A DNA stretch of 64,000 nt, taken from the IMG/VR virus record IMGVR_UViG_3300029957_000007, positions 1 to 64,000 of that record, one strand, 5' to 3'. Each line of letters begins with the position of its first letter. The first letter of the stretch is position 1. This document shows positions 7,070 to 57,069 of the stretch, piece after piece. This DNA comes from a virus. Under the pieces are notes generated by a model, which was not told the origin of the DNA, did not search any database, and was given only the letters and a program-made list of their open reading frames with translations. The position numbers and the translations under genes are program-made.

Positions 7070-7234
7070 AGTGCAGCATTGGATCAGGCTTTCCGGATAC
7101 TATATCTTCGAGTTTGATTCACTCACTTCACAGGTCTACTGACGGAGGTGGACTATCGGTTTATGACGGCGAGCAGAAACGAGGCTGATCTACGTCAACT
7201 TTCACTTTTCAATCATCACACAGAAGGAGCCACC
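7070..7234 (+). promoter_or_regulatory. Leader region with candidate promoter
   Basis: This 165-base gap holds no convincing gene. At 7093-7108 the sequence CCGGATACTATATCTT shares CCGGATA followed by an AT-rich box with 28925-28941, the other long leader that precedes a new gene block. No clear -35 is visible, which would suit a phage sigma factor. Treat as a hypothesis. Confidence 0.3.
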
Positions 7235-8200
7235 ATGGCCAAGGATAAGAAGAAGGACGAGGAACTGGAAGAGGACGAGAAGGACATCAAGAAGAAGGGC
7301 AAGAAGAAGGAAGATGAAGAGGACGAGGACGACGAGAAGCCGAAGAAGAAGGGCAAGGCAAAGGACGACGACGAAGATGAGGACGAAGACGAGGAGGAAG
7401 ACGAGAAGCCTTCCAAGAAGAAGTCCAAGTCTGACGACGAAGACGAAGATGATGATGACGATGACGACGAGAAGCCTTCAAAGAAGAAGTCCAAGTCCGA
7501 TGACGAAGACGAGGATGAAGACGAGGATGAGGATGACGACGACGATGAGGACGACAAGAAGTCCAAGTCGAAGAAGAAGTCCAAGTCTGACGACGAAGAC
7601 GAAGATGAAGACGAGGATGACGACGACGAGGAAGATGAAAAGCCTTCCAAGAAGAAGAAGTCCAAGTCCGATGAGGACGATGAAGACGACGACGAGGATG
7701 AGGACGAAAAGCCCAAGTCCAAGAAGAAGTCGAAGAAGTCCGATGACGAAGACGAAGATGAGGAAGACGAGAAGCCTTCCAAGAAGAAGTCCAAGAAGTC
7801 CTCTGATGACGATGAGGATGACGAGGATGAGGACGAGGAGAAGTCCTCCAAGTCCAAAAAGAAGTCCAAGTCCAAAGATGACGAAGAGGACGAGGACGAC
7901 GAGGAAGACACCCCCAAAGGAAAGAAGGAGAAAACCATGGCTAAGAAAGAGAAGGACGTGAAGAAGAGCAAGAAGGAGAAAGAGGAGAAGAAGGAGAAGA
8001 AGAGCAAGCGAGGCAGCGGTGGTGAGCGACTGGTGAAGCATTGGTCGGGAGTCGCTGAGCGGCTGGCCAAGCGCTTGGCCAAGAACGCCAAGAAGCTGAC
8101 CAGCGAGCTGAAGAAGGTGAAGGACGACAAGGAGTCCAGCAAGGCGCTGAGCTCTTTGGGAGAGTCCTTCGAGAAGGCTGCCAAGGTCTTGGCGGACTAA
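7235..8200 (+). CDS. Acidic/basic repeat nucleoid protein with H1-like C-terminal domain
   Basis: 321 aa from the ATG with AAGGAG upstream; a longer in-frame GTG start is less likely. Residues about 1-250 are almost only Asp, Glu, Lys, Ser and Pro, in imperfect repeats of acidic runs and KPSKKKSK-type basic runs. The last 60 residues form a helical, Lys-rich domain (VAERLAKRLAKNAKKL ... KVKDDKESSKAL) that is clearly paralogous to the minus-strand protein at 56716-56988. The layout resembles a histone-H1-like or DNA-condensing protein with a polyampholyte tail. It may organise phage DNA during replication or packaging (inference). It is transcribed as a separate unit, ending in the strong terminator at 8218. 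Confidence 0.75.
   Translation: MAKDKKKDEELEEDEKDIKKKGKKKEDEEDEDDEKPKKKGKAKDDDEDEDEDEEEDEKPSKKKSKSDDEDEDDDDDDDEKPSKKKSKSDDEDEDEDEDEDDDDDEDDKKSKSKKKSKSDDEDEDEDEDDDDEEDEKPSKKKKSKSDEDDEDDDEDEDEKPKSKKKSKKSDDEDEDEEDEKPSKKKSKKSSDDDEDDEDEDEEKSSKSKKKSKSKDDEEDEDDEEDTPKGKKEKTMAKKEKDVKKSKKEKEEKKEKKSKRGSGGERLVKHWSGVAERLAKRLAKNAKKLTSELKKVKDDKESSKALSSLGESFEKAAKVLAD
7310..7915 (+). repeat. Low-complexity GAC/GAG/AAG codon repeats
   Basis: The coding strand consists of imperfect repeats of GA-rich codons, with units such as GACGAAGACGAGGATGA and AAGCCTTCCAAGAAGAAGTC repeated many times. Very similar units occur at 18711-19160 in the ssDNA-binding protein gene. Confidence 0.8.
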
Positions 8201-18064: not shown

Positions 18065-19165
18065 GTGGGTAACAAGTGGCAAGACGCAATCGCAAACAGC
18101 GGTGGTGACGATATCCGCCGTTTGAAGGTCAACGCTCCAGCCAAGGGTGAGAAAACGAAGCTCAGGATTCGCATCATCGACAACAACTTCGAAGATGCGT
18201 GGGTTCACTTCTTCCCTGGCTTCAAAGAGAACGGTGAGAAGGGAGTTCGCTTTGCCGTGTGTCATGGCAAGGGCAAGTGCCCTATCTGCGCCAAGTTCGA
18301 GGAGAGCGGAGACGAGGACTTCAAGGCGAAGCGTCAGTTCTACATGAACGTGATCGATCGCAAGGCTGAGAAGCCTCAGGTCATGGTCTACCAATGCGGT
18401 TTCGGTACGTTCAAAGACATCGCTGCTCTCACTGATGAGGATTCCGGTCTCACGGATCCCAGCGAGTTCGATGTGATCATCACTCGTGTCGGTAGCAAGA
18501 AGACCGACACACGCTACACGATCAAGCCGTTCATGAAGGATGGCGTGGTCGTGAAGAAGAAGTTGCCTTCCGACCTGCGTGAACTGATCGCTGCCAAGAC
18601 GGAGGACGGTGGTCCTTATGATCTCTCCAAGTTCGTCGAGAAGGTTTCGATCGACGACATCGAAGAGATGCTGACTGGCAACTTCTCGTCCAAGGCCAAG
18701 GGCAAGAAGAAGGACGATGACGAGGATGACGAAGACGAGAAGCCGAAGAAGAAAGGAAAGAAGTACGCCGCTGATGACGATGAGGACGAGGACGACAAGC
18801 CGAAAAAGAAGAAGAAGTCGTCTGATGACGATGAGGATGATGAGGACGAGGACGAGAAGCCGAAAAAGAAGTCCAAGAAAGACGAAGATGAGGATGACGA
18901 TGAGGACGAGGACGAGAAGCCCAAGAAAAAGGGCAAGAAGAAAGATGATGAGGACGAGGACGAAGATGAGAAGCCTCGGAAAAAGTCGAAGAAGAAGGAT
19001 GATGACGACGAAGACGAGGATGAGGACGAAGATGAGAAGCCCAAGAAAAAGGGCAAGTCCAAGTCTGACGATGACGACGAGGACGAAGATGAAGACGAGG
19101 ATGAGAAGCCTCGCAAGAAGTCGAAGTCCAAGAAGGACGACGACGATGATGAGGATGAAGACTGA
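18065..19165 (+). CDS. gp32-like single-stranded DNA-binding protein with extreme acidic/basic tail
   Basis: 366 aa, GTG start with AGAGGT upstream. The core (residues 1-215) resembles T4-type ssDNA-binding proteins: a zinc element CHGKGKCPICAKF (Cys66, His67, Cys72, Cys75), KRQFYMNVIDR, and beta strands with aromatic residues. The C-terminal 150 residues are alternating Asp/Glu runs and KPKKKGKK-type blocks. Known phage SSBs end in a short acidic tail that recruits partners; this tail is far longer and mixed in charge, and resembles the tail of the protein at 7235-8200. It would coat ssDNA at forks and recombination sites. Confidence 0.75.
   Translation: MGNKWQDAIANSGGDDIRRLKVNAPAKGEKTKLRIRIIDNNFEDAWVHFFPGFKENGEKGVRFAVCHGKGKCPICAKFEESGDEDFKAKRQFYMNVIDRKAEKPQVMVYQCGFGTFKDIAALTDEDSGLTDPSEFDVIITRVGSKKTDTRYTIKPFMKDGVVVKKKLPSDLRELIAAKTEDGGPYDLSKFVEKVSIDDIEEMLTGNFSSKAKGKKKDDDEDDEDEKPKKKGKKYAADDDEDEDDKPKKKKKSSDDDEDDEDEDEKPKKKSKKDEDEDDDEDEDEKPKKKGKKKDDEDEDEDEKPRKKSKKKDDDDEDEDEDEDEKPKKKGKSKSDDDDEDEDEDEDEKPRKKSKSKKDDDDDEDED
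18711..19160 (+). repeat. GA-rich codon repeats in SSB tail
   Basis: Imperfect repeats of GACGAGGACGAGAAGCC and AAGAAAAAGGGCAAGAAG-type units encode the polyampholyte tail. Similar units occur at 7310-7915, so slippage or recombination between the two loci is possible. Confidence 0.75.
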
Positions 19166-53057: not shown

Positions 53058-53535
53058 CCAAAGCATTGTCGACAAGCTTCGTGCTGAAGAACTTGAACGC
53101 GTTGAGTCCATTCGACGTAAAGCTGAAAAGGACTCACGTGTAAAGCACTGGTACGACAAGCTGTTGCTTCGATGGTACATCACACTGGTCAAACTGTTGT
53201 GGTGGACACAGAAGGCACTTCAACGTGCAGTCAATCACCGCAACAAGTACAGCGAGACATGGATCACACACGAGTCAACACGCATCTTCGCTGAGATGCT
53301 GCAAGGCGATCAGTTAGACGTGCTGAAGGAGCTCAACATCCTTCGAGCATGGAAGATCGACGACTCGAAGCTGATGATCACATTCGGCAAGATCGAAAGA
53401 GATGAAGAGAAATACGTATTCCCTGACGAGGGCATGTTCATTGTCGTTGAAGCTGTGAACGACCATGACGCTACATTCCTGAAAATTGGAATGGACACGT
53501 GGGAGAAGGAAAATGATTCAGCAAGAAGAAATTAA
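53032..53535 (+). CDS. Hypothetical protein with aromatic segment
   Basis: 167 aa. Residues about 45-60 (LLRWYITLVKLLWWTQ) are amphipathic and may touch membrane. C-terminal half alpha/beta. GGAGG upstream. Not recognised. Confidence 0.5.
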   Translation: MKLTSLLSSQSIVDKLRAEELERVESIRRKAEKDSRVKHWYDKLLLRWYITLVKLLWWTQKALQRAVNHRNKYSETWITHESTRIFAEMLQGDQLDVLKELNILRAWKIDDSKLMITFGKIERDEEKYVFPDEGMFIVVEAVNDHDATFLKIGMDTWEKENDSARRN

Positions 53536-53797
53536 GCAAGATGTGCTGAATGCTTTACAGCTTCTGAAACCTGAGAGAGAAGAGCAGTTTGATACGACTT
53601 GGGAGATCTTCACCAAGAAGTATTCGCTTCACTCAGTTGAAGCAAGTGGGAACGGGATTGGTCAACACGTTCTTGCTGATCTGCTGCGACCAATTGCACA
53701 GGGTCATCACGAAAGGCACATTCACATTTTCTACAAGCATTTGGTGACAGTGAATGGCGGCATCGTTGAAGTGGACTTCTTGTTCAAGTGGTTCTAA
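53513..53797 (+). CDS. Small hypothetical protein
   Basis: 94 aa from the ATG at 53513 (GGAGAAGG upstream). Ends in a beta hairpin, VTVNGGIVEVDFLFKWF. It precedes the structured RNA candidate. Confidence 0.5.
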   Translation: MIQQEEIKQDVLNALQLLKPEREEQFDTTWEIFTKKYSLHSVEASGNGIGQHVLADLLRPIAQGHHERHIHIFYKHLVTVNGGIVEVDFLFKWF

Positions 53798-53800
53798 AGA

Positions 53801-53966
53801 CTTGCGGTTGCAGTTGGTGCAAGAGCCAAAGGGCCCAGGACTTGAGCATCGGCCCCCTCGTTCCTTTGCTCAAGTATGACCACCCTAATGCGAATGGGAA
53901 ATCGCATCGTAGGCTGAGCGAGTTTGGAGTCATGCCTCCAATGTAGCAATCCTACACAACCGCAAG
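53801..53966 (+). ncRNA. Candidate structured RNA (about 166 nt)
   Basis: This gap has no gene but a consistent set of helices. P1 CTTGCGGTTG/CAACCGCAAG (53801-53810 with 53957-53966) closes the element. Inside are P2 TTGG/CCAA (53814-53829), P3 ACTTGAGCA/TGCTCAAGT (53840-53848 with 53867-53875), P4 ATGCGA/TCGCAT (53888-53907), P5 TTGGAG/CTCCAA (53924-53941) and P6 TGTAG/CTACA (53942-53956), the last stacked directly on P1. GGGCC at 53831-53835 can also pair with GGCCC at 53851-53855 in the P3 loop, a pseudoknot. It ends 21 bases before the next ATG, so it may be a cis-regulatory leader or a free phage RNA. No known family recognised. Confidence 0.55.
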
Positions 53967-53987
53967 GTTTCTTTGACGGAGAGATCC

Positions 53988-54467
53988 ATGCTGAAGAAAG
54001 TTGACACGCTACTCAAGCAGTGCAAGGGTAAGACGACTGTGCATAAGTTTGAGAATCTACTCACGAAACTCGATGGTCTATGCAGAATGGACTTCGACTT
54101 CTTGATGAGAGGCAACCTCATTCCTTACCGAGTCACATTCGCAAATGGTGTGAGTAAAGAGGAGTGGGATGCGACACCAGATAAAAGTAAGGTAGTGACG
54201 ATCGAACATCAGGATCCTGACCAACTCGGCAAGTTGTTCTTCGCAGCAGTGATGGACACACGTCGTCCTCATGATACCACACTGACATTCGTTGATTACT
54301 ACTCGAAAACGATTTCAGTGCGAGTTAAGGGCGATGACTATCACAATCCGATTTTTGTGGCAGAAGGAAGGATCCTCTGGAATGGGGCTCTCGAAGATCA
54401 TCTTCGTGAACAAGAACACGAGGCGATCAAGGAGAAAAACAAAGAGAAGTGGAGAAAGTCACTATGA
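53988..54467 (+). CDS. Hypothetical protein downstream of structured RNA
   Basis: 159 aa from the ATG at 53988 (GGAGAGA upstream). Basic N-terminal helix region, then an alpha/beta middle (IPYRVTFANGVSKEEWDATP, TTLTFVDYYSKTISVRVKG) and a charged C-terminal helix. Not recognised. Its expression may depend on the RNA element just upstream (inference). Confidence 0.55.
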   Translation: MLKKVDTLLKQCKGKTTVHKFENLLTKLDGLCRMDFDFLMRGNLIPYRVTFANGVSKEEWDATPDKSKVVTIEHQDPDQLGKLFFAAVMDTRRPHDTTLTFVDYYSKTISVRVKGDDYHNPIFVAEGRILWNGALEDHLREQEHEAIKEKNKEKWRKSL

Positions 54468-56715: not shown

Positions 56716-56988
56716 CTAGATCTTCACGGCCTTCGCAGCCTGCTCGAAGGAGGCCTTGATGGCGTTGAGCGCCTTCACAGCGTCCTTGTCGTCCTTGACC
56801 TTGGCGATCTCCTTGTCGATCTTCGCAGCGTTCTTCGCCAGCCGCTTGCTCAGCCGATCGCTGATGCCGTTGAACCAGGCAACTCGGCCCTGACCGAAGG
56901 ACTTGCGCTCCTTCTTCGGAGCCTTGACCTTCTTCTCGGCCTTGGAAGCGGTGGCCTTCTTAGCGGTCTTCTTGTCGGCGTTCTTCAT
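56716..56988 (-). CDS. Histone H1-like nucleoid protein (only minus-strand gene)
   Basis: 90 aa; start chosen at 56988 because GAGG lies seven bases upstream, though a start at 57015 would add nine residues. N-terminal 40 residues are Lys/Ala-rich (MKNADKKTAKKATASKAEKK), like bacterial H1-type proteins. The C-terminal 50 residues (ISDRLSKRLAKNAAKI ... KVKDDKDAVKAL) closely match the C-terminal domain of the 7235-8200 protein. It has its own candidate promoter and terminator. Likely condenses or coats DNA, perhaps early or in the head (inference). GC-rich codons suggest high expression. Confidence 0.75.
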   Translation of the reverse strand: MKNADKKTAKKATASKAEKKVKAPKKERKSFGQGRVAWFNGISDRLSKRLAKNAAKIDKEIAKVKDDKDAVKALNAIKASFEQAAKAVKI

Positions 56989-57069
56989 GGTGAACCTCGT
57001 GAATGAGTGAGCCATTGTGGCTCTGAGCGAACTGGCTGATCCAGTAGGCTCACTGCCAGTTTACTACAA

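Follow-up and report, generated by a model that had tools for sequence, protein, structure and literature searches.

Phages and prophages encode elaborately folded non-coding RNAs like GOLLD and ROOL, often located close to tRNA genes; both are large and backed by covariation, and GOLLD often exceeds 800 nt (PMC12286853). The candidate RNA described here is also phage-encoded, non-coding and, by prediction, intricately folded. However, it comprises 166 nt, has no match in Rfam, and no relatives of it were found.

Smaller RNAs are also encoded by phages. The stable RNAs C and D of phage T4, with a size of about 120-140 nt, are processed from the transcript of the tRNA region, and their function is unclear. 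The candidate would likewise be a small phage RNA, but its nearest tRNA is 2.3 kb distant and its processing is putative. The packaging RNA of phage phi29 (pRNA) has about 170 nt and is branched, with its ends paired in a closing helix. In size, branching and the presence of a closing helix that pairs the ends the candidate is similar, whereas it matches no family in Rfam and the gene for the large terminase is located about 21 kb away. In the msr-msd RNA of retrons, an a1/a2 inverted repeat pairs the ends around several hairpins. The ends of the candidate are also paired by an a1/a2-like inverted repeat enclosing hairpins; however, a retron was rejected, since no reverse transcriptase (RVT_1) was found in the record, while controls were detected.

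The locus and its predicted fold

The window, the whole stretch of DNA that was analysed, corresponds to positions 1-64,000 of an IMG/VR virus record with a length of 122,758 bases. The virus is a tailed phage, for which a large terminase gene and a portal gene were recognised, and gene calls cover 93% of the record. The candidate is located in a gap between the genes at 53513-53797 and 53988-54467, and the genes adjoining the gap are all on the plus strand. The first-pass annotation had described this gap as devoid of open reading frames, which agrees with the gene calls and with codon log-odds that are negative in all six frames; reading frames of 41-52 amino acids obtained by six-frame translation were ruled out as genes by these negative scores. 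The purine content of the gap is 0.51, compared to 0.55 for the genes and 0.53 for the phage's own tRNAs. The proteins encoded next to the gap, including the product of the gene at 53988-54467, are orphans without a relative in Pfam, PHROG or IMG/VR. Seven tRNA genes are present in the record; in the window, tRNA-Pro and tRNA-Ser were detected by ARAGORN. The sequence of the candidate occurs as a single copy in the record.

All helices proposed earlier, among them the perfect 10-bp closing stem P1, were found at their positions in the predicted plus-strand fold, in which the minimum-energy structure is the same as the centroid (Table 1). It was also confirmed that the RNA ends just upstream of a ribosome site. 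The helices number six, or seven when P3 and P3b are counted separately, and 44 of the 45 pairs are of the Watson-Crick type. Judged from their adjacency, P5 and P6 may be stacked on P1. The plus-strand fold is unchanged within 271 nt of native context. The possible pseudoknot, also part of the earlier description, corresponds to a 7-bp loop-loop complement which is present on the plus strand only; 3% of shuffled loops equal or exceed this length.

Table 1. Features of the candidate RNA and its surroundings (positions in the window; MFE, minimum-energy fold)
Feature	Position	Strand	Basis or remark
Non-coding gap, 190 nt, containing the candidate RNA	53798-53987	+	Gene caller trained on the same genome; codon log-odds
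Candidate structured RNA, a five-way junction with 45 predicted core pairs	53801-53966	+	MFE = centroid, -62.8 kcal/mol
P1 closing stem, 5' arm CUUGCGGUUG, partner 53957-53966	53801-53810	+	Perfect 10-bp inverted repeat
P1 closing stem, 3' arm CAACCGCAAG	53957-53966	+	Perfect 10-bp inverted repeat
P2 hairpin, 5 bp, with the sole G-U pair	53814-53829	+	MFE fold
P3 (53830-53833/53883-53886, 4 bp) and P3b (53840-53848/53867-53875, 9 bp)	53830-53886	+	MFE fold
Possible pseudoknot, P3b loop CUCGUUC with GAGCGAG (53916-53922, internal loop of P5), 7-bp complement	53857-53863	+	
P4 hairpin, 6 bp, loop AUGGGAAA	53888-53907	+	MFE fold
P5 (53909-53913/53951-53955, 5 bp) and terminal P6 hairpin (53924-53929/53936-53941, 6 bp)	53909-53955	+	MFE fold
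Shine-Dalgarno-like GGAGAG (53978) and ATG (53988) of the gene 53988-54467	53978-53990	+	Sequence

Significance of the fold and search for relatives

For positions 53801-53966, the plus-strand energy was better than that of shuffled sequence, with a z of -3.74 relative to dinucleotide shuffles and none of 200 shuffles being as good. The ensemble diversity is 7.3, compared to a shuffle mean of 35.4, and one of 150 shuffles was as low. When the limits of the whole gap were used, which are independent of the fold, the energy z was -2.7 to -3.0 on the plus strand and -3.8 to -3.9 on the minus strand, and a diversity as low was obtained for none of 150 shuffles. With the 271-nt native context as the unit, z was -1.06, which is not below the shuffles.

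Comparisons were also made within the genome. An ensemble diversity of 7.3 or lower was identified in 6 of 4087 equal-sized windows, a comparison which is not fully fair because the boundaries of the target were chosen and those of the windows were not. The GC-corrected plus-strand energy was equalled or beaten by 235 of the 4087 (about 6%). The 10-bp stem by itself is unremarkable, since perfect inverted repeats of this length or longer that span 100-260 occur 37 times in the 122,758-base genome, nearly always within genes; P1 is the sole one of the 37 located entirely within a gap, and the candidate is the best defined among the closed multi-branch inverted-repeat segments of the genome. The first-pass annotation had considered such a fold unlikely to arise by chance. 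This holds for the whole fold, as judged from its z and its diversity, but not for its single parts, given the number of inverted repeats and of windows with equal energy. The fold is probably, but not certainly, under selection.

None of the families in Rfam 15, including riboswitches, ribozymes, tmRNA, 6S, pRNA, GOLLD and ROOL, reached its gathering score, and no meaningful family was found at permissive thresholds. The sole match up to an E-value of 10, the human lncRNA LINC00901, scored 13 bits compared to the 55 needed and is meaningless. A tRNA or tmRNA was rejected, since ARAGORN detected no tRNA-like domain at 53801-53966. These results are in line with the earlier impression that the sequence does not match a riboswitch, ribozyme or tmRNA consensus.

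BLASTn searches against phages and plasmids revealed no relative, the matches being short and due to chance where there were any. With the 20-nt P1 pattern, six matches were obtained in IMG/VR, three of which are variants of one sequence and two of another, with one single; their interiors are unrelated in sequence and fold, and they were judged to be chance matches. Scans of IMG/VR with the P6 and P3b patterns gave no match and one chance match within a gene, respectively. A mobile element with terminal inverted repeats was rejected on the basis of flanks without target duplication and the single copy in the record. The best relatives of the terminase, the portal protein and DnaE (for DnaE, among the matches listed) share about 36% protein identity, with the exception of one 38-kb contig that encodes a 100% identical terminase and, by its length, stops short of the RNA site. 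A covariance model built from the single sequence, which is a weak probe that a diverged form could escape, was run over the complete records of about 68 related viruses and genomes as well as over 1.1 Mb of loci, where it detected only the candidate itself. Overall, the searches in Rfam, in phage and plasmid sequences, and in IMG/VR and GTDB data yielded no relatives.

Interpretation of the candidate RNA

A structured non-coding RNA outside the known families is supported by these results, and a processed phage RNA, one of two roles suggested by the first-pass annotation, appears possible. The explanation favoured here, though tentatively, is a lineage-specific, structured plus-strand RNA in a polycistronic phage transcript, most likely excised or protected as a stable small RNA. 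It would be transcribed with the operon, between two genes of the polycistronic message, and this segment of the transcript would fold into a compact five-way junction, with the 10-bp closing stem joining both ends. Most likely, it would then be excised from the transcript or protected within it, and the excised product would act as a separate stable small RNA, like the RNAs from phage tRNA regions. An RNA cargo would be in character for this phage because of its seven tRNA genes and other folded non-coding stretches. The explanation is supported by the energy (z of -3.74), the diversity of 7.3 with 6 of 4087 windows as low, and the persistence of the fold in the 271-nt context, as well as by the non-coding gap, the only one of 37 repeats contained in a gap, and the loop-loop complement on the plus strand only. 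It is weakened by the lack of an identified homologue and hence of covariation, by the GC-corrected energy at about the 6th percentile, the lower energy of the minus strand, the boundaries chosen in the first-pass annotation, and the z of -1.06 for 271 nt.

The other suggested role was a leader switch. A cis-acting leader that controls the translation of the gene 53988-54467 in response to a ligand, temperature or a protein would explain that the RNA ends 11 nt upstream of the ribosome site; it would be the longest leader among the local tightly packed genes, and a weak, G-U-rich hairpin able to mask the ribosome site is present in the gap fold. However, with the RNA folded, accessibility is ordinary, the ribosome site being at the 40th percentile among 162 genes and the start codon at the 60th; deletion of the 5' arm of P1 in silico resulted in no clean on/off alternative, no Rfam riboswitch matched, and, with an orphan protein encoded downstream, no pathway hints at a ligand. 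In addition, no promoter-like site was identified on either strand of the locus in a scan that covers only sigma-70-like sites. A switch is not supported by these observations; it is unlikely, and less likely than a stable small RNA. A self-contained RNA carried by the operon fits better than a switch at the ribosome site, because the accessibility of the site is ordinary and the closed domain persists in 271 nt. To go further and regard a pseudoknotted five-way junction as a novel class of small RNA in phages, acting during infection as a discrete RNA or as part of an RNA-protein complex, would be decidedly speculative.

A serious rival is chance folding, which is quite possible: a non-coding spacer, richer in GC, might simply fold well and have been singled out from many scanned gaps with chosen boundaries. 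This would agree with the 37 inverted repeats of such size, with the 235 of 4087 plus-strand windows that fold equally well for their GC content, with the modest plus-strand z of the whole gap, with an equal or lower z in many other gaps and with the lack of identified homologues. In contrast, a very low ensemble diversity, shared by few windows, and a fold that fills the entire gap with its ends closed speak against chance, and the lower z of other gaps is at least partly due to tRNAs and single strong hairpins. It is very unlikely that the locus instead encodes a minus-strand RNA or represents an element at the DNA level, for example, a palindromic replication or packaging site. As the helices are almost all of the Watson-Crick type, both strands pair, and the energy of the minus strand is lower (-71.5, z of -5.53), mainly as a result of G-U pairs that lengthen helix ends; one minus-strand gene is located 2.7 kb off. 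However, the minus-strand fold is ill defined, with a diversity of 25 that 29 of 150 shuffles equalled, and its best loop-loop complement has 5 bp compared to 7 bp on the plus strand. The lack of a promoter-like site on either strand, the absence of a GC skew flip at the locus and the single copy in the record also argue against such an RNA or element. We favour the plus strand because of its sharply defined fold, its 7-bp loop-loop complement and the adjacent genes, which are all on this strand.

Other stretches of the record and outlook

Further folded stretches were identified in the record outside the window. At record positions 112870-113385, about 500 nt of non-coding sequence are strongly folded (z of -6.8), flanked by the next gene on one side and, on the other, by a hairpin that resembles a terminator and is accompanied by a TATAAT box. 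No match was obtained for it in Rfam or by BLASTn against phages, and it is possibly a better candidate than 53801-53966 for a large phage RNA or a long leader. The spacer between tRNA-Lys and tRNA-Gln (119376-119515) contains a long branched hairpin and a perfect hairpin, with a z of -7.5 and an ensemble diversity of 4.8, and has no meaningful Rfam match. A gap of 121 nt at 72455-72575 contains two long, near-perfect hairpins (z of -7.3), followed by a run of eight T.

Within the window, a gene on the minus strand (56716-57015) is located between tRNA-Pro and tRNA-Ser in a genome which is nearly all plus. Its product is paralogous to the C-terminal end of an acidic repeat protein (7148-8197, plus strand), with 51% identity over 61 amino acids. 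Two proteins, encoded at 7148-8200 and 18065-19165, contain long Asp/Glu-rich, Lys-spaced repeats of the DDEDEDEKPKKKSKK type.

We regard the sequence at 53801-53966 as a further candidate, as yet unproven, among the unclassified phage RNAs. If real, it would be one more member of the small group of unclassified structured RNAs described for large phages, and it would imply that such RNAs can be restricted to a single lineage, where covariation searches are blind. Two or more further non-coding stretches of the record are strongly folded, so that this phage would be suited to an RNA-first survey, given a host or close relatives.
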